Shown here: positions 54,363 to 64,000 of the stretch, piece by piece
How positions within the stretch are numbered: position 1 is the stretch's first letter
Layout of the letters: each line of letters begins with the position of its first letter
Assembly (NCBI RefSeq): GCF_012044895.1
Contig: NZ_CP050695.1
Span: forward strand, 1,456,501-1,520,500
Origin: Aquisalimonas sp. 2447
GTDB taxonomy: Bacteria; Pseudomonadota; Gammaproteobacteria; Nitrococcales; Aquisalimonadaceae
Reading direction: 5' to 3'
Length of the DNA: 64,000 nt
The notes under the pieces: generated by a model
The model's input: only the letters and a program-made list of their open reading frames with translations
Told to the model about the DNA's origin: nothing
Database searches by the model: none
Translations under genes and position numbers: made by a program

Positions 54363-55424
54363 CTACACTACCCCTTCCGGCCTAACTACCACAATATCAT
54401 CAGGCTCAATGCCGTCCTGAACGAACAATTCTGGCGTTTCCTCCTCACGAACCCCCTCCAACATCAGCGCGGCTTTCGCCTGCTCAAACGCCTTAGCCAC
54501 TGAGAGCCCAAAGCCAATCGTTGAGTAAAACTGAGAAGAGAAAATCCTGGCAGCTTGGTCAGAGATAGTATCAGCCATGCCTATGGCTGCTTCGACGTGC
54601 TGAACAACGAGCTCAGCCTGCTTTCTGGAGTAGCAGGTGTTAAAGAAGACCAATCTTATGTCGCCTGTAGACGCTACCATCGTCTGCACAATGGCTTCCT
54701 TAGTTACAAGTTTGGTCCCGCCAACGCTATCCTGAAATACTAGCTCGTCATCCTGAGAGCCATGCCCACTAAAATGAACGACTGCCGGATGGCTTTCATT
54801 CAGGGCTTGAAGAATATCCATTGGTTGAACTGCCCAGAAGGATTTTAGGGTGACAGAATCTCTGTGCTGCGCCTTCCTTAACATCTCCTGTATAGCGCGC
54901 GCTTCTTCATCTAGCCGTAGAGAACTCTGATCAAGCGGATTAGCGGCAAAAAACGCCACTGTTATCTTCTCTGGCAAGTTCTTCAATCTTTCCAATTCAG
55001 TCATGGTGTCCCGGTGCATCCGATCATGTCTCGACAAGGCCTTGCCGACCTGACGAAGCTGCCGCTCATGAGCCTCTCTCTGACTCTGAAGGTCCTTCTG
55101 CCTTCTCTGGTCGATCTTTTTTTCCACCTCGGCGACCTTTCGCTGAGCCGTTTCGATCTCTTTATGTTTGGTCGCCATCCTTGCCTCCAGCTTAGCCAGT
55201 TTGTCCGCTTCTTTGCTCGCACTCTTTTCGTGCCGTACGGCTTCGCGGAATTTGCTACTTGCTGTGGAACCATTCCTTGACTTGCTGGCGCCCTCAGACG
55301 CCTTCTGGGCTTTGACTGTATAATCCGCCAGCTTCTTCTGAATCTTCGCCCTGTCAGAAGCTAACTTAGCTAGCTCTGCGCGCTTCCTTTGGAGCGCGTT
55401 TTGATAGGTTTCAATTAAGGCCAT
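54363..55424 (-). CDS. CHAT-domain caspase-like protease with N-terminal coiled coil
   Basis: 353 residues. Residues ~1-145 are coiled coil, rich in Lys/Glu/Ala. The CHAT (caspase HetF-associated) domain starts near 150 (ITVAFFAANPLDQSSLRLDEEARAI) and has catalytic His in VVHFSGHGS (~221) and Cys in LVFFNTCYS (~264). GGAG lies six bases before the ATG. The gene's base composition is clearly AT-richer than the core genome. CHAT proteases act in abortive-infection and gasdermin-type systems; the partner here is the small membrane protein downstream. Confidence 0.85.
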   Translation of the reverse strand: MALIETYQNALQRKRAELAKLASDRAKIQKKLADYTVKAQKASEGASKSRNGSTASSKFREAVRHEKSASKEADKLAKLEARMATKHKEIETAQRKVAEVEKKIDQRRQKDLQSQREAHERQLRQVGKALSRHDRMHRDTMTELERLKNLPEKITVAFFAANPLDQSSLRLDEEARAIQEMLRKAQHRDSVTLKSFWAVQPMDILQALNESHPAVVHFSGHGSQDDELVFQDSVGGTKLVTKEAIVQTMVASTGDIRLVFFNTCYSRKQAELVVQHVEAAIGMADTISDQAARIFSSQFYSTIGFGLSVAKAFEQAKAALMLEGVREEETPELFVQDGIEPDDIVVVRPEGVV

Positions 55425-57310: not shown

Positions 57311-57733
57311 GTGGACGAGTCGCGACCAGCGTGCAGATCCCAGTTCATGGAGGACTGGCTGCAGGACAGAGGTATACGGCGCGAGGCTACTCAGAAACTC
57401 ATGCGAATTTTCGACGTATGGGATATCGCGGGCGGCGAGAAACTGGAGTTACTTGGCGCTTGTGCTGACGACGCGGAATATCTAGGCCGCCTGCGTGAAG
57501 GCGTGGAGATTTTGCCACATGATGAGGAGAGCTGCCGCAGGGCGATGAATATTCTCTCGATCCAACGGTCATTGGAGGAATTCGCCCCGGATGCTCCGCA
57601 GTGGCGGGACGATTGGGTGCATCAGCCGATTAAAGGTCTGGGCTATGAGCGGCCGATTGACATCATGCGTCACGAAGGCCTGCCCGGGATCGAACGGGTC
57701 CGGCGTTACACCAAGACACTTGGACATTTGTGA
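57311..57733 (+). CDS. Xre/MbcA/ParS-type (DUF2384) antitoxin-like protein
   Basis: Up to 140 residues (GTG 57311; ATG 57347 is the alternative). The C-terminal half reads as the toxin-binding MbcA/ParS domain: RAMNILSIQRSLEEFAPDAP, WVHQPIKGLGYERPIDIM and GLPGIERVRRYTKTL. The usual partner, a RES-domain toxin, should follow but the next 200 bases encode nothing like it. It may be an orphan or have lost its toxin. Confidence 0.7.
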   Translation: MDESRPACRSQFMEDWLQDRGIRREATQKLMRIFDVWDIAGGEKLELLGACADDAEYLGRLREGVEILPHDEESCRRAMNILSIQRSLEEFAPDAPQWRDDWVHQPIKGLGYERPIDIMRHEGLPGIERVRRYTKTLGHL

Positions 57734-57932: not shown

Positions 57933-58373
57933 TCAAACCGCGAAACCATGCCTGCTGTTGATCAGCATACTACTGACTAGTTTCTGCCCGATTTCCGTTG
58001 TAGCGGCATCTAGTGGCGATACCCCTTGTAGAAACCGCGATTTCCGCCTCACCCACGAATCAGCCGAATTGAAATCGTCGAAGTAGGAATACACATCATC
58101 GAATGTACGAGCGAGCCGAAGTACTCTTTCAGACTCCTCTACCGAGAGAGCCCGTTGGTTCTTTTCTCGCCTTCTTAATGTTCTGCGGTTGACGATTAGT
58201 CGATCAACATCACGTATTTCTAGGGTGGTTTCTCGCATTAGGGCAGCTATGGCGAGTATGGGAAATCCCGATCTTACAATCCAATAGAGTTCGATTGTAT
58301 TATCTCGCAAGCCAACTTCCCGAGAGGGCGTCGCTTCTTCTAGAACGGCAGTCAAGACTCTGGATGAACACAT
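57933..58373 (-). CDS. Xre/MbcA/ParS-type antitoxin, second
   Basis: 146 residues. An Xre-like segment with RRTLRRREKNQRALSVEESERVLRLAR is followed by the ParS domain (WVRRKSRFLQGVSPLDAATTEIGQKLVSSML). This is the standard layout of antitoxins paired with RES toxins. No RES gene lies downstream (57933 and below): only short unrelated frames. It faces the other ParS-type gene tail to tail. The gene is noticeably AT-richer than its surroundings. Confidence 0.78.
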   Translation of the reverse strand: MCSSRVLTAVLEEATPSREVGLRDNTIELYWIVRSGFPILAIAALMRETTLEIRDVDRLIVNRRTLRRREKNQRALSVEESERVLRLARTFDDVYSYFDDFNSADSWVRRKSRFLQGVSPLDAATTEIGQKLVSSMLINSRHGFAV

Positions 58374-58762
58374 CGCTGGCCTCTGGATTAATCAGGCCTT
58401 GTGCCGACTAGCGGCATCATGGCTGCGGCCTTGTCCGGGAGGATCAAACTAACACACGGATGGTGGTAGGTACTTTCTGTAAGGCGATTTCCGCGTGGGG
58501 GTGCGGTGTTGTCGTCATGAAGACAATTGCAACAAGGTCATGTGGTTATGTGAGTGATGTGGGTTGCCAGACCTCGTCGCGCTTGCTACTGTAAACCCGA
58601 AGCATCACCCATCACGGATTACGAGATCATGACGACCCACGCGCAGCAAAAGATAGGAATCACCCGAATACCTCGGAGGTAGCGGGAGCTGCGCGTTTGT
58701 GTGCTGATTGTTCATGCGAAGCCGGGCCCCGCCCGGCTTCGCTGCGTTTGGGGGTGCTCTTT
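58374..58762. other. Intergenic region with a strong hairpin before the phosphoesterase cluster
   Basis: No supported gene. At 58717-58741 a perfect inverted repeat, CGAAGCCGGGC and GCCCGGCTTCG with a three-base loop, lies 22 bases before the next start codon. It could be a REP-type repeat or a structure in the leader of the cluster mRNA. Confidence 0.5.
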
Positions 58763-59557
58763 ATGTCCTGTCTCGATGCCCACTGGCTCTTCGGTGGTGA
58801 TCCGCACGGCGGATTCGATCCCATCAATTCCATTGCCTCATTGACGCAATCACCGGTCACCATCCTACTCGGTGACTACGGTCTGGAGGCGCAGTCGCTT
58901 GCGGAAGCACTCGAGCCGGCGCGGGGCGCGGGCGACGTCTACTGGATTCCGGGCAATCACGATTACGAATCTGACGCGGTCTACGATCTAACGTTTGGAC
59001 ACAAGCTCGCCCAGCACAACCTGCACGGCTGTGTGACAACGATCGGTGGCGTGCGGGTTGCCGGCCTCGGCGGGCATTTTCAGGGCCGGGTGTGGCACCC
59101 AAGAAGTGGGAAACCCCGCGAGCGCACGCGTGCGAAGTGCCTGGCAACAATCGGCAAGGGAAACGTGTGGCGCGAGGGACTCCCGCGCAAGCTGCGCGCG
59201 GCGATCTGGCCCGAGGACGTTGCGGCGCTCAAGGAGCAAGCAGCGGATGTGCTCGTCACTCACGAGGCCCCGAGTTGCCATCCGCTGGGATTCGCGGTGA
59301 TCGACGATCTCGCCCGAGCAATGGGGGTAGGGCTCATCGTCCACGGTCACACGCATCTCACCTATCGCTTTGACGCCGCAGAAGGCGATCTCACTGTACT
59401 CGGCGTTGGACTGCGGGGCGTGACGGATGGCGTGGGCGAGGCGCGGGTCTTTGGTGCCATCGACTACGGAAAGGCAAAACAACTCCGCCAGGCGTCAGCC
59501 GCTGGGCGACGTCCGGCGGGGCGCTTTCATGTGCCTGTCCGGGGGTGGGTATGGTAG
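58763..59557 (+). CDS. Calcineurin-like metallophosphoesterase (first of three)
   Basis: 264 residues from ATG 58763. Motifs of the metallophosphatase fold: GDPHGGF, ILLGDYG, WIPGNHDYE, VLVTHEAP and IVHGHTHL, so the two-metal site is complete. An upstream TTG start would include a hairpin sequence and is rejected. It overlaps the next phosphatase gene by seven bases. Substrate is unknown: RNA cyclic phosphates, nucleotides or proteins are possible. Confidence 0.85.
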   Translation: MSCLDAHWLFGGDPHGGFDPINSIASLTQSPVTILLGDYGLEAQSLAEALEPARGAGDVYWIPGNHDYESDAVYDLTFGHKLAQHNLHGCVTTIGGVRVAGLGGHFQGRVWHPRSGKPRERTRAKCLATIGKGNVWREGLPRKLRAAIWPEDVAALKEQAADVLVTHEAPSCHPLGFAVIDDLARAMGVGLIVHGHTHLTYRFDAAEGDLTVLGVGLRGVTDGVGEARVFGAIDYGKAKQLRQASAAGRRPAGRFHVPVRGWVW

Positions 59558-60369
59558 GTCGGACGATTGGCCGCGCGGTCGCGCAGCTCCCGCGCAACAC
59601 GCGGGGACGGGATCTTGTGGTCAGCGACCTCCACGGCATGGTCGACGACCTGCGCGAGGCGCTCACGCGTGTGGCGTTCGACCCGGTGGCTGACCGCGTG
59701 GTGTGTGTCGGCGACTTGGTCGACAAAGGTCCGGACTCGCTCGCCGCGCTGCGACTGCTAGAGGAGCCCTGGTTCACTAGCGTGATGGGCAATCATGACC
59801 TCGCCGCGGCCGTGCGACTCTTGGCGAACAGACCGGATGTCCATGCCGACGATGTGGCACGGTTCCGGCTGCCGATGGAGCCCTGGTTGGCAGCGCTGGA
59901 CGCCGAGGGACAGAGCGAAGTGGCTGCCCACATCGACGCCCTCCCGTGGTTGCTTGAAATCCCCGTCGGCGACGCGTTGATCGGCGTCGTCCACGCCGAG
60001 GTCCCGGAGGATATCGAGCGTTGGACGGACCTGCGGTGCCGCGTCGAGCAGGTCTTCGCAGACCGGGCGGACATGGCCGCGCTGGCCCCGCTGGTCAAGG
60101 GCCGGCGCTACCTCCGGGCGCTCAAGGCCGGTGAACTGCCCGAGGCCGACGACCCGCAGGCCGTGCTGCCGGACGTGCGCGCGGTGCTGCACGGTCACAC
60201 GATCCGCGCGGACACGGGATTCCGGCCGTGGCGTGTCGGCAATCGCATCCATCTGGACAGTGGGGCGTTTTTGAAACAACCCGCCTGGTACGACACGTGG
60301 GCGCACGTCACTGAGGGCCGCCCGGGGCTCACGCTCGTCGATGTCACGGACCCGATGACGCCACTGTAG
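59551..60369 (+). CDS. PrpA/ApaH-like serine/threonine-type phosphatase
   Basis: 272 residues starting MVGRTIGRA. Sequence motifs are those of the bacterial PPP phosphatases: LVVSDLHGMVDDL, VCVGDLVDKGPDS, SVMGNHDLA and AVLHGHTIRA. Related enzymes include PrpA/B, ApaH and polynucleotide-kinase-associated phosphatases. GGGGGTGGG precedes the ATG inside the end of the previous gene. Confidence 0.85.
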   Translation: MVGRTIGRAVAQLPRNTRGRDLVVSDLHGMVDDLREALTRVAFDPVADRVVCVGDLVDKGPDSLAALRLLEEPWFTSVMGNHDLAAAVRLLANRPDVHADDVARFRLPMEPWLAALDAEGQSEVAAHIDALPWLLEIPVGDALIGVVHAEVPEDIERWTDLRCRVEQVFADRADMAALAPLVKGRRYLRALKAGELPEADDPQAVLPDVRAVLHGHTIRADTGFRPWRVGNRIHLDSGAFLKQPAWYDTWAHVTEGRPGLTLVDVTDPMTPL

Positions 60370-60379
60370 GGGACGGACG

Positions 60380-61234
60380 ATGCTGCACAGCCTCACACCA
60401 CCGCGACCTACCGCCGATCATCCGGCGCTTCCCGGACTGCATCGGCAGTGCGCGCGGCTGATCGCAGCCGATTCCGCCCTGGCCGCCGCGATCCATCAGA
60501 ATCGCGGCCCGGTGCGGCAGCCGCGCGTGGCGACCGTCGAGTTGATCGCCTCCAACCGAATCGAGGGGCTGGTCGGCGCGCATTGTCGAAGGACCGTGGC
60601 AGTGGCGGCACTGCGCGAAGCACGCGAGATCCTCGCCGCGATAACCGACACCACCCCGGACGGGTGGATCGATGCGCTGTGCCGCGTGCATGCCCGATTG
60701 GCAGCGCACGGTGTGGTGGACGGCATGCCGGCGGGCGACTTTCGACAGCAGGAGGTGGTCGTCGCCCGGCACCAGGCCCCGCCCACGCAGCGGGTGGCCG
60801 GCTTGATGGCCGACTGGGCGCGTGCCTATCACTCCGACTCGGCACGGCAGGCTGACGCGGTGGTGGATGCGCTGTGCGCCCATCATCGCCTGCTCTATAT
60901 CCACCCGTACCGCGATGGAAACGGGCGTCTCGCGCGCCTGGACCTCGAAGCCCGCCTGCGCATCCCGGGTCTGCACTGTGGGGTCGCGTGGTCGGTCTCG
61001 GCCGCACTTGCCCGGGCTGAAGCGCAGTACCGCGCAGCGCTCGCGCAGGCGGACGCCCCGCGCCACGGTGACCTGGACGGCCGTGGGGCCTTGTCGCAGG
61101 CCGGGCTCGTGGCTTATTGCGGATCGATGCTCGATGCGCTGCAGCGTGAAGTCGACCGGTGTCTTAGCCGGACTCCCGTAGCCTGCGCGGGCCACAGCTT
61201 TACAGAGGAGGGCACCCCGTGGAGCTGCGCGTAA
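60380..61234 (+). CDS. Fic-domain protein (AMPylase-type) with class II inhibitory motif
   Basis: 284 residues. Fic core HPYRDGNGRLAR at ~175-186 carries the catalytic histidine and the phosphate-binding loop. The N-terminal SNRIEG (58-63) fits the (S/T)xxxE(G/N) inhibitory helix, so the enzyme should be autoinhibited. Fic enzymes usually transfer AMP from ATP to a hydroxyl of a target protein. It ends inside the next phosphoesterase gene (16-base overlap). Its place in an RNA-processing cluster is unusual. Confidence 0.88.
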   Translation: MLHSLTPPRPTADHPALPGLHRQCARLIAADSALAAAIHQNRGPVRQPRVATVELIASNRIEGLVGAHCRRTVAVAALREAREILAAITDTTPDGWIDALCRVHARLAAHGVVDGMPAGDFRQQEVVVARHQAPPTQRVAGLMADWARAYHSDSARQADAVVDALCAHHRLLYIHPYRDGNGRLARLDLEARLRIPGLHCGVAWSVSAALARAEAQYRAALAQADAPRHGDLDGRGALSQAGLVAYCGSMLDALQREVDRCLSRTPVACAGHSFTEEGTPWSCA

Positions 61235-62043
61235 TGAGCGACCTGCATCTGGAGATCGCCGGGCGCGGTGAATCCAGGAAGAATGTCCCATTCTTGCTGG
61301 ACGTCACCGATGCCGATCAGGAGCGTGTGCTGGTGCTCGCTGGGGATACCGATGTAGACCGCCAGGCCGCGTGCTTCGCCGCGAGGCAGGCGCCGCATTT
61401 CCGGGCCGTTATTCAGGTGCTCGGCAATCATGAGTACTACAAGGACGGCTCGACCACGCGATTGCCGACGAAACTCCGGGCGTACCTTGCGGGGTTGGAG
61501 GCAAGCAACGTGCACATCCTCGACAACGACGCCCAAGACCTCGATCGGGTGCGGTTCATCGGCGCGACGCTTTGGACGGACTTCAACGCCGGCGCCCCGG
61601 AGACGATGCGTGTCGCGGGTGAGTCGATGAACGACTTCAAGCGGATCCGCTGCGGCACCGAGGCGGCGCCCTATGGGCGCCCCTTTCGGCCGCACACGGC
61701 GTACCGGTTGCATCAGATCTCACGTGCCTTCATCGAGCAGGCGGTGCTGCAGGCACACGCCGACGGGCAGGTCCCGGTGGTGGTCACCCACCACGCGCCG
61801 TATCTGCCGGAAGGGCTGGACGGCCCGCCGTTGTCGTTCGCCTACGGCTCGGATCTGAGCGACCTCATCCGTCGCACGCGCCCGGCACTATGGATTCACG
61901 GTCACACCCATGCGTGTGTCGACACCACTATTGCCGGCTGCCGAGTGGTGGCCAATGCGCGCGGTTACGCCGGGATCGAGCCTGTGGCGGGCTTCGATCC
62001 CGAACGGGTGGTGGATCTCCAGGAGGGACGAGGTGATGGCTGA
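61219..62043 (+). CDS. Calcineurin-like metallophosphoesterase (third)
   Basis: 274 residues from GTG 61219, supported by GAGGAGGG about six bases upstream. Motifs: VMSDLHLEI, LVLAGDTD, QVLGNHEYY, VVVTHHAPY and WIHGHTHAC, with the metal ligands all present. It overlaps the exonuclease-like gene by eight bases. The family includes 2',3'-cyclic nucleotide phosphodiesterases, which fits RNA-end processing, but substrate is not determined. Confidence 0.87.
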   Translation: MELRVMSDLHLEIAGRGESRKNVPFLLDVTDADQERVLVLAGDTDVDRQAACFAARQAPHFRAVIQVLGNHEYYKDGSTTRLPTKLRAYLAGLEASNVHILDNDAQDLDRVRFIGATLWTDFNAGAPETMRVAGESMNDFKRIRCGTEAAPYGRPFRPHTAYRLHQISRAFIEQAVLQAHADGQVPVVVTHHAPYLPEGLDGPPLSFAYGSDLSDLIRRTRPALWIHGHTHACVDTTIAGCRVVANARGYAGIEPVAGFDPERVVDLQEGRGDG

Positions 62044-62557
62044 TCTTCCGGGCATGATTGACTTCGAGGCCTCCGGGCTGGGGCCGGAGAGCTATCCGAT
62101 CGAGGTCGCCTGGTCGGATCCGCACGGTCACGTGGAAGCGCATTACATTGACCCCGCGCCGGGCTGGGAGGACTGGGATCCGGAGGCGGAGGCGATTCAC
62201 TGGATCCCGCGGCACCTGCTGCGCGATTGCGGCAAGCCGGTGGCTTGGGTTGCCGAGCGGATGAATGCGGTGCTTGCCGGCAGGACCGTCTATTGTGACG
62301 CTCCGCGCATGGACGCTTTCTGGTGCCGACGGCTGTTTGAGGCCGCTGGCCGAGATCCCGCCTTCCAGGTCGGCTCGTTTTGGCACATCCACCCGGATCC
62401 CTCGGCTCGGCTGCCGTACCGCCTGGTGACACAGATTCTCGAGCGCGCCGAGGCCGCACGCGGTGGGCGCCAGCACGAGGCCGACAGCGATGTGCGGTTC
62501 CTGCTCGCGGTCTACTGGCTGACGCGCCAGGCGATGAAGGAGCAGGGTCATGCGTGA
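62036..62557 (+). CDS. DEDDh 3'-5' exonuclease-like protein (first)
   Basis: 173 residues. DxE at the N-terminus (MIDFEASGLG, D9 and E11) is the exo I motif; a second acidic segment (CDAPRMDAFW) and a late HEADSD (HxAxxD) complete a DEDDh active site. Small single-domain exonucleases of this type trim RNA or DNA 3' ends. Start ATG 62036 overlaps the phosphoesterase gene; the end overlaps the nucleotidyltransferase gene by eight bases. Confidence 0.78.
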   Translation: MADLPGMIDFEASGLGPESYPIEVAWSDPHGHVEAHYIDPAPGWEDWDPEAEAIHWIPRHLLRDCGKPVAWVAERMNAVLAGRTVYCDAPRMDAFWCRRLFEAAGRDPAFQVGSFWHIHPDPSARLPYRLVTQILERAEAARGGRQHEADSDVRFLLAVYWLTRQAMKEQGHA

Positions 62558-63332
62558 GCGCATCCTGGAGCGCCTGGAGCAACTCGAGACCGAGCACTGG
62601 GTCAGGGTCCTCTATGCTTGTGAGTCGGGTAGCCGTGCCTGGGGATTCGCCTCTCCGGATTCGGACTTTGATGTCCGGTTCATCTACGCCCGTCCGGTTG
62701 AGTGGTATCTCAGGATTGATGTCGAGCATCGCCGGGACGTGATTGAGTGCCCGATCATCGATGCCCTCGATATTGCGGGCTGGGACATCCGCAAGGCCTT
62801 GAAGCTCTTCAGCCGCACGAATGGCGCGTTGCTGGAGTGGCTGCACAGCCCCATCGTGTACCGGGATCAGGGGGCTTTCCGCGAACGGCTCCAGCAGTTG
62901 GCTGCAACAGCGGTCGATGCCCGCGGCCTGTGTTACCACTACGCGCATATGGCGCGCGGCAATGCGGGTGAGTTTCTTGATGGTGAGGCGGTGCGGCTGA
63001 AGAAGTACTTCTACGTCCTCCGCCCACTTCTTGCCATTCGCCATATTGAATCGACCGGCTGTCTCCCACCGGTGGAGTTTCAGAAGCTGGTGGAGTCGTT
63101 TGCTCCCGAGGCTTTGCGCCCGGAGATCGACGCGCTGCTCGAGCGCAAGCGGCGCACGGAGGAACTCGGTGTGGGGCCGCCGATGCCGTTGATCGATGCC
63201 TTTATCCGGGAGGAGCTCGCGCGGCACGAGGCGGGGTTCCACGGTGAGGGGCGCCCGGACATTGAGACGCGCCCGGCCGTGCTCGAGGAACTGAACCGGT
63301 TATTCCGGGATGTCCTCAGCGGTGAGGCGTAA
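62550..63332 (+). CDS. RlaP/YcgL-type nucleotidyltransferase
   Basis: 260 residues of the DNA polymerase beta superfamily. The nucleotide-binding signature is CESGSRAWGFASPDSDFDVRF, with GS at 27-28 and catalytic aspartates at 39 and 41. RLKKYFYVLRPLLAIRHIE in the middle fits the RlaP/YcgL family (PF10127), proposed in the literature to act in RNA repair. It overlaps the preceding exonuclease gene. In this context it may add nucleotides to RNA ends. Confidence 0.88.
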   Translation: MRERILERLEQLETEHWVRVLYACESGSRAWGFASPDSDFDVRFIYARPVEWYLRIDVEHRRDVIECPIIDALDIAGWDIRKALKLFSRTNGALLEWLHSPIVYRDQGAFRERLQQLAATAVDARGLCYHYAHMARGNAGEFLDGEAVRLKKYFYVLRPLLAIRHIESTGCLPPVEFQKLVESFAPEALRPEIDALLERKRRTEELGVGPPMPLIDAFIREELARHEAGFHGEGRPDIETRPAVLEELNRLFRDVLSGEA

Positions 63333-63341
63333 GGGGAGCGC

Positions 63342-63881
63342 ATGCACATCTTTCTGGATACCGAGTACACCGACGAAGAGGTGCCCTTCCTCATCAGCTT
63401 CGGCCTGGTTGCGGGTGCCGCGCCCGTCGATACGCTCTATGTGGAGCTCACGGACACTTGGCATCGCGCTGACTGTTCCCCCTTCGTGCGCGCCACCGTG
63501 CTGCCGGCGTTGATGGGCGGCAGTTATGCGTCGGACTCTACGGCTGCCCGGGTGCGGGTGCAGGCCTGGGTCGATGCGCTTCCCGGGGAGCACGAGGTCG
63601 TGACGGATTTCCCGGAAATCGATATGCGCCTGTTTCGGGATTGGCTGGGCACATCACACTGGCCCAAGAATCTCGCGGCTTCCGCGCGGCGGCTCGATAC
63701 TGCCGGTCTGCCTGCGGGCGAGGTGCGGGACGCCGCCCGTGATGCTATAGAGCAGCATCAGCAGCAGTGGGGTGCACACAATGCGCTCGCAGATGCGGAT
63801 CGGCTGCGTACCGTGTATGCGGCGGTCATCGCGGCAGGCTGCGACCCATTCGGCGGGGCAGGGCCAAATCGTGGGCGCTGA
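63342..63881 (+). CDS. DEDDh 3'-5' exoribonuclease-like protein (second)
   Basis: 179 residues. IFLDTEYTDEEV gives the DxE pair at residues 6 and 8; TDFPEIDMRLF supplies the middle aspartate; HNALADADRL is the HxAxxD motif. It resembles the short exoribonucleases of the Rv2179c type. AAGGGGAG precedes the ATG. It overlaps the next, partial, gene by 11 bases. Two different DEDDh enzymes around one nucleotidyltransferase suggest opposed addition and trimming. Confidence 0.8.
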   Translation: MHIFLDTEYTDEEVPFLISFGLVAGAAPVDTLYVELTDTWHRADCSPFVRATVLPALMGGSYASDSTAARVRVQAWVDALPGEHEVVTDFPEIDMRLFRDWLGTSHWPKNLAASARRLDTAGLPAGEVRDAARDAIEQHQQQWGAHNALADADRLRTVYAAVIAAGCDPFGGAGPNRGR

Positions 63882-64000
63882 AGCAGTCCGGCTGACCATC
63901 CAGATCCATTGGAACGACCAATGGCATGATGCAGCCGTGGTCTCTTTTCTTGACCAGTCAAAGGGGCTTCGGAGCCCCTTGCGTGCCACGTACAGGCCGG
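63871..64000 (+). CDS. Start of a gene cut by the window edge, possibly HipA-family kinase
   Basis: From GTG 63871 a frame is open to the last base (43 codons): VGAEAVRLTIQIHWNDQW then HDAAVVSFLDQSKGLRSPLR. GGCAGGG lies about eight bases upstream and the start overlaps the previous stop, as in the rest of the cluster. The LTIQI..N.QWHDAA pattern resembles the N-terminus of some HipA-family proteins, but the fragment is too short for certainty. Confidence 0.45.
   Translation, partial: MGAEAVRLTIQIHWNDQWHDAAVVSFLDQSKGLRSPLRATYRP

Follow-up and report, generated by a model that had tools for sequence, protein, structure and literature searches.

A 64,000-nucleotide stretch of the complete 3.97 Mb genome of Aquisalimonas sp. 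2447 (bases 1456501-1520500; hereafter the window) ends in a compact run of plus-strand genes encoding three metallophosphoesterases (MPEs), a Fic-domain protein, two DEDDh exonuclease-like proteins and a nucleotidyltransferase of the RlaP family. The organism is salt-loving. Reading was extended 44.5 kb past the window, and full coordinates continue the window numbering beyond base 64000. Frame calls and Pfam confirmed the seven complete genes and the eighth, cut by the window end, that had been described from the DNA alone (the sequence-only reading):

58763-59557, plus strand: MPE-A, a calcineurin-like metallophosphoesterase (PF00149, 44.5 bits)
59551-60369, plus strand: MPE-B, a PrpA/ApaH-like metallophosphoesterase (PF00149, 48.8 bits)
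60380-61234, plus strand: Fic-domain protein (PF02661, 52.4 bits)
61219-62043, plus strand: MPE-C, a metallophosphoesterase with a phosphodiesterase-like fold and a GTG start (PF12850/PF00149)
62036-62557, plus strand: DEDDh-1, a 3'-5' exonuclease-like protein (PADLOC DEDDh model, AlphaFold/Foldseek)
62550-63332, plus strand: RlaP, a Pol-beta-type nucleotidyltransferase (PF10127, 296 bits)
63342-63881, plus strand: DEDDh-2, a predicted 3'-5' exoribonuclease (motifs, annotated relatives, PHROG 2259)
63871-64000 (gene end at full coordinate 65196), plus strand: HipA-type kinase, partial in the window (HipA_C, 78 bits)

Most of these genes overlap by 7-16 bases, as that reading had it: the overlaps are 7 bases between MPE-A and MPE-B, 16 between Fic and MPE-C, 8 between MPE-C and DEDDh-1, 8 between DEDDh-1 and RlaP and 11 between DEDDh-2 and HipA, with gaps of 10 bases (MPE-B to Fic) and 9 bases (RlaP to DEDDh-2). 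Pfam families could be assigned to six of the eight genes (Metallophos three times, Fic, RlaP and HipA_C). The catalytic motifs of all seven complete genes look intact, and the earlier claim of undamaged active sites is borne out to that extent.

The set recurs in Aquisalimonas lutea (L015/L277), where all seven genes are present in the same order with 51-79% identity and the cluster is flanked by different genes on both sides. The A. lutea genes run MPE-A, MPE-B, Fic, MPE-C, DEDDh-1, RlaP and DEDDh-2; an antitoxin-like gene lies on the opposite strand between MPE-B and Fic, and a second MPE-A between MPE-C and DEDDh-1. Ratios of non-synonymous to synonymous substitution rates (dN/dS) between the window and A. 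lutea were 0.12-0.29 for the seven genes, values that are approximate because dS is 1.0-1.5, and the seven genes are under purifying selection. Since they keep both their order and this selection in A. lutea, the cluster is not a product of chance. HipA is absent downstream of the A. lutea cluster and from its block, and was therefore excluded from the unit; of the eight-gene cluster first proposed, seven genes form a unit and the kinase is not shared. A core-gene comparison with A. lutea matched mostly related paralogues and was set aside. The cluster with RlaP occurs in two of five Aquisalimonas genomes, the other three having no RlaP, and none of the loci and genomes compared outside Aquisalimonas held exactly this set.

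The three phosphoesterases differ in their closest relatives. MPE-A carries the motifs GDPHG, GDY, GNHD, THEAP and GHTH, and its ATG start agrees with that of the A. lutea orthologue (65% identity). MPE-B (DLHG, GDLVDKG, GNHD, VHAE and HGHT) matched PRK11439 below the cut-off (E-value 2e-23), and its relatives in the PDB are Ap4A hydrolases and a Ser/Thr phosphatase. The motifs of MPE-C are SDLH, GDTD, GNHE, THH and GHTH; an AlphaFold model of high confidence (predicted local distance difference test, pLDDT, 94) was closest in Foldseek to PptH, followed by MPPED2, Dbr1, Rv0805, GpdQ and Mre11. PptH acts on carrier proteins, cleaving a phosphodiester on the protein. Sequence searches of the PDB with MPE-A and MPE-C gave no match. 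MPE-A had no relative among viral contigs, and relatives of MPE-C are present in phages.

Class II Fic AMPylases are recognised by an HxFx(D/E)GNGRxxR-type active site preceded by an (S/T)xxxE(G/N) inhibitory motif. The Fic protein of the cluster reads HPYRDGNGRLAR at the active site, with tyrosine in place of phenylalanine, and carries the class-II-like inhibitory motif SNRIEG; its A. lutea counterpart has HPFRDGNGRIAR and SNLIEG. FICD is a PDB relative of the cluster's Fic protein. Judged by these motifs it qualifies as a class II Fic AMPylase, with AMPylation as its predicted activity. Fic and MPE-C overlap by the same 16 bases in the window genome and in A. lutea. That shared overlap, the resemblance of MPE-C to an enzyme acting on a protein phosphodiester, the Ser/Thr phosphatases among the best sequence relatives of MPE-B and the antitoxin-like proteins encoded nearby would all suit a switch based on protein modification, in which Fic (by AMPylation) and, in the window genome, HipA (by phosphorylation) would stop growth, MPE-B and MPE-C would reverse the modifications, ParS/MbcA-type antitoxins would regulate, and the nucleases and RlaP would be accessory. 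Such a switch leaves two DEDDh enzymes and RlaP unexplained, HipA is missing from the A. lutea cluster, and relatives of MPE-A, MPE-C and DEDDh-1 elsewhere almost never adjoin Fic. The antitoxin-like genes have the antitoxin domains of RES-Xre/MbcTA toxin-antitoxin systems, but no RES-domain toxin was recognised among the neighbours scanned, small flanking frames not being covered. We regard this explanation as improbable; it is nevertheless a serious rival, helped by the Fic/MPE-C overlap and the likeness to PptH.

DEDDh-1 and DEDDh-2 show the motifs DFE..D..HEADSD and DTE..D..HNALAD, respectively, and neither reaches the Pfam reporting cut-off. DEDDh-1, 79% identical to its A. lutea orthologue, matched the PADLOC DEDDh model with an E-value of 5e-6, and its AlphaFold model (pLDDT 83) has QIP, DnaQ, ISG20L2, RNase AS and Cap18 as its nearest solved folds; these matches are of low identity, with template-modelling (TM) scores of about 0.5-0.6, and Cas2-DEDDh exonucleases are among the likenesses. 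Relatives of DEDDh-1 are present in phages; one homologue lies in PA5oct-like Pseudomonas jumbo phages (L349:6965-7495). Relatives of DEDDh-2, which matches PHROG 2259, are annotated as 3'-5' exoribonucleases, and its A. lutea orthologue matched an Rv2179c-like exoribonuclease model weakly and below the cut-off. No relative of DEDDh-2 was found in phages, and none in 368 other Gammaproteobacteria genomes. A mixed DEDDh profile (A4) yielded marginal matches to ERI1 and nothing more. RlaP, by contrast with the two exonucleases, is assigned by Pfam, aligning over positions 1-249 of the 249 of PF10127 at 296 bits (cut-off 23) with the Pol-beta motif GSRAWG..DSDFD; on this match it is a member of the family. 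A PDB sequence search with RlaP found no match.

The likeness of the DEDDh-1 model to Cap18 and Cas2-DEDDh exonucleases, that of MPE-C to the cyclic-nucleotide phosphodiesterases Rv0805 and MPPED2, the phage relatives of both proteins and a setting in a defence island are consistent with direct action against phage, whereby phage nucleic acid, or cyclic-nucleotide or ADP-ribose signals, would be destroyed. RlaP, however, belongs to repair loci, and the block has neither sensor nor cyclase. PADLOC recognised no described anti-phage system in the cluster, its matches there being to generic or candidate models (SoFic, DEDDh and PDC). Of the explanations considered we find this one the least probable.

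RlaP has been described as RNA ligase-associating and is predicted to restore lost nucleotides before ligation (PMC7824862). In the reading of published surveys, itself predictive, RNA ends are cleaned by phosphatases of the calcineurin-like and HAD 'Swiss army knife' kinds, and genes of this sort are mixed together in phages (PMC7824862, PMC9503650). A ligase accompanies RlaP in 12 of 22 sampled loci: ten carry a gene family of which two members were confirmed as RtcB, one has Pnkp with Hen1 (L272) and one an Rnl-type ligase. A Fic-like gene lies about 5 kb from RlaP in one locus (L224), and free-standing MPE-A, MPE-C or DEDDh-1 occurred in none of the 22. RlaP was accordingly rejected as the anchor of a conserved neighbourhood outside Aquisalimonas, where its homologues are not linked to free-standing MPE or DEDDh-1 genes, and its membership in such a cluster has so far been seen in this genus alone.

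The MPE and DEDDh families do occur in company elsewhere, often with HAD_SAK_2, the Pfam 'HAD domain in Swiss Army Knife RNA repair proteins' (PF18143). A plasmid of Rhodoferax antarcticus (L310:3612-7265) carries an overlapping operon of AAA ATPase, HAD_SAK_2, DEDDh-2 and MPE-A. Genome G287 groups two DEDDh-1 genes, MPE-A, HAD_SAK_2 and an antitoxin-like gene, and G173 groups DEDDh-1 copies, MPE-C, HAD_SAK_2 and antitoxin-like genes. MPE-A, DEDDh-1 and MPE-B lie within about 5 kb on a Pseudomonas silesiensis megaplasmid; a Comamonas plasmid has HAD_SAK_2, a small gene and MPE-A in succession; and HAD, MPE-C, NIF-type HAD and HAD_SAK_2 stand together in G217. The pairing of MPE-A or MPE-C with DEDDh in the window cluster is thus also seen in the G287, Rhodoferax and P. 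silesiensis loci. In 369 sampled Gammaproteobacteria, MPE-A and DEDDh-1 co-occurred in 4 genomes against 0.73 expected (p 0.004) and lay within 10 kb in 2 against 0.055 expected, while MPE-A and HAD_SAK_2 co-occurred in 3 against 0.22 expected (p 0.0008); linkage, too, exceeded expectation for both pairs. The window genome has no PF18143 match; close to a second set of related genes (see below) it carries a NIF-type HAD. As a separate observation, a G173 contig (L274:154-17368) holds DEDDh-1 copies and antitoxin-like proteins among mobile genes, with a possible small nucleotidyltransferase.

The sequence-only reading was open to challenge from homologues scattered without linkage. That holds for RlaP outside Aquisalimonas, but the A. 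lutea block is conserved and the MPE, DEDDh and HAD pairings recur. The variable composition of these loci, the frequent occurrence of MPE-A, MPE-C and DEDDh-1 alone and the mixture of defence genes among the island neighbours may instead point to loose accretion, with independent mobile accessory genes stacked in an island, each having a small housekeeping or defence role of its own and sharing no pathway. Against this stand the seven genes kept in order in A. lutea between different flanks, all under purifying selection, the overlapping reading frames and a linkage that exceeds random placement. Accretion is the other serious rival; we consider it unlikely, though somewhat less so than the switch.

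We favour, with a probability of roughly 0.4, the interpretation that the seven-gene block serves to heal or remodel RNA 3' ends and that Fic either regulates it or is its effector. Once ribonuclease toxins, or nucleases of phage or host, had cut an RNA, the phosphoesterases would strip its 2',3'-cyclic or 3' phosphates and perhaps nucleotide adducts as well. The DEDDh enzymes would then trim the 3' ends and RlaP would re-add nucleotides. Rejoining, if any, would rely on a ligase encoded elsewhere, possibly the genus-wide Pab1020-type RNA ligase. Fic, with its auto-inhibitory motif, may be a switch or an effector that AMPylates a protein of the cell or of the module, and a ParS/MbcA-type protein would control expression. 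We infer RNA as the substrate, this order of steps, the role of Fic and a benefit against toxins or phage. The structural neighbours of MPE-C, which include the RNA enzyme Dbr1 as well as cyclic-nucleotide phosphodiesterases, count in favour, and so does the position of the block among type III restriction genes and an SNF2-PLD helicase. The proposal of RNA-end processing in the sequence-only reading gains from gene context, namely the loci that join RlaP to ligases and MPE or DEDDh genes to HAD_SAK_2, and loses from the want of a ligase within the cluster.

Several observations weigh on the other side. MPE-B is more like the PrpA/ApaH phosphatases and the best structural match of MPE-C is a carrier-protein hydrolase, so that the substrate may be something other than RNA; the closest DEDDh folds are active on DNA as well as RNA. 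Linkage of RlaP with MPE, DEDDh and Fic genes has been seen in Aquisalimonas alone, and the label 'Swiss Army Knife RNA repair' comes from a database and denotes a predicted function. The co-occurrences involve few genomes, one genus enters twice (as G173 and G287), and the gathering of accessory genes in islands raises the true expectation; these counts are for that reason support and not proof. Neither a ligase nor a kinase, cyclase or 2H enzyme was recognised in the cluster, and the genome has no RtcB. The search for an RNA ligase past base 64000 that the sequence-only reading had proposed recognised none in the 44.5 kb downstream, nor did Pfam among the cluster genes. A genome-wide search for RtcB and PF09414, which did not cover the T4 Rnl1-type PF09511, returned a single PF09414 ligase, 760 kb from the cluster, whose C-terminal region is of the Pab1020 type. 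This ligase could act in trans for the cluster; it is present in all five Aquisalimonas genomes checked, whether or not they have the cluster. A bolder claim seems to us doubtful, namely that the block represents ligase-free, Fic-controlled RNA 3'-end remodelling in defence islands, with the phosphoesterases, both DEDDh exonucleases and RlaP resetting cleaved ends, and that it derives from a broader family, so far undescribed, of modular MPE, DEDDh and HAD gene sets carried by plasmids and islands.

Upstream of MPE-A we noted the following:

57311-57733, plus strand: antitoxin-like protein with an Xre/MbcA/ParS C-terminal toxin-binding domain (PF09722, 33.7 bits)
57933-58373, minus strand: Xre-HTH and MbcA/ParS antitoxin-like regulator, divergent from the operon (PF20432 and PF09722)
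58509-58526, no strand assigned: palindrome TTGTCGTCATGAAGACAA, a putative operator in the divergent region (inverted-repeat scan)

A half-site of the palindrome lies at 58627-58636. Separately, an inverted repeat (58716-58742) with perfect 12-base arms around a 3-base loop lies 20 bases 5' of the MPE-A start and is a possible RNA hairpin or operator. By alignment, the protein encoded within the A. lutea cluster (146 residues) has domains like those of the 57933-58373 product. A general link with ParS/MbcA antitoxins was rejected: such a gene was present at 2 of the 20 DEDDh-1 loci, at just 1 of the 79 MPE-C loci from genomes and at 0 of the 22 RlaP controls.

The seven-gene block sits in a mobile defence island, which also holds an SNF2-PLD helicase with DUF4391, a type III methyltransferase with a helicase/nuclease, a second type III pair, a TrwB/mads8-like ATPase, WYL regulators, a CHAT protein and, as read from sequence, a ParDE-like pair. 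The CHAT-domain protein (window 54363-55424, minus strand) gave weak SAVED_CHAT and PDC-S66 matches. At full coordinates 65475-74888 the SNF2-PLD helicase, DUF4391, type III methyltransferase and a type III-like restriction helicase follow one another and may form a composite restriction system. Two large adjoining proteins of 1397 and 812 residues, encoded at 94613-101241 (L008:3113-9738), had no match in Pfam or PADLOC; the first reads as helicase-like and the second might be PIWI-like.

The same island contains a second set of diverged MPE paralogues 20 kb downstream (full coordinates 79947-86301; L007:7447-13801), comprising an antitoxin-like protein, MPE-B', MPE-C', MPE-A', another MPE-B on the minus strand, a DEDDh protein and a NIF-type HAD. 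MPE-A' is 59% identical to the second MPE-A of A. lutea and 48% to the window MPE-A, which suggests that MPE-A was duplicated long ago inside clusters of this kind.

Bacterial RNA repair is known mainly from ligase-centred operons. If our interpretation is correct, the resetting of RNA ends, and not merely their rejoining, would be a traded defence function, perhaps controlled by AMPylation, and the plasmid-borne pairings of MPE, DEDDh and HAD_SAK_2 genes offer small, readily expressed two- or three-gene operons for testing the idea. The sequence-only reading knew of no described system with exactly these genes; we likewise found no description in the literature searched, which did not extend to the main RNA-repair survey. 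The parts are known families, and the combination may have been described before.

Ligase-based RNA repair operons of the RtcB, Rnl or Pnkp type have a ligase within the operon, together with a phosphatase, kinase or cyclase that prepares RNA ends. The cluster has three MPEs, which may or may not prepare RNA ends, and no kinase, RtcA or Hen1; because the ligase, for which we tested, is absent, we regard it as a variant of the RNA-repair theme and not as a member of a described operon. With the RtcB-RtcA-RtcR operons that include RlaP it shares this nucleotidyltransferase and the theme of RNA end chemistry, but it has three MPEs, two DEDDh proteins and Fic in place of RtcB, RtcA, RtcR and Band-7. 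The bacterial Pnkp-Hen1-RlaP locus likewise combines a calcineurin-like phosphoesterase with RlaP; in that locus a kinase-phosphatase-ligase protein contains the phosphoesterase as one of its domains, whereas in the window it is free-standing and has neither kinase nor ligase beside it. The Rhodoferax operon resembles the cluster in its overlapping homologues of DEDDh-2 and MPE-A on mobile DNA, which are 40-41% identical to their window counterparts, but has HAD_SAK_2 and an AAA ATPase and lacks RlaP, Fic, MPE-B, MPE-C and DEDDh-1. Closest is the A. lutea cluster, which shares all seven genes, their order and the 16-base Fic/MPE-C overlap, and differs in an extra MPE-A paralogue after MPE-C, an antitoxin-like gene inside, the lack of HipA and its flanks.

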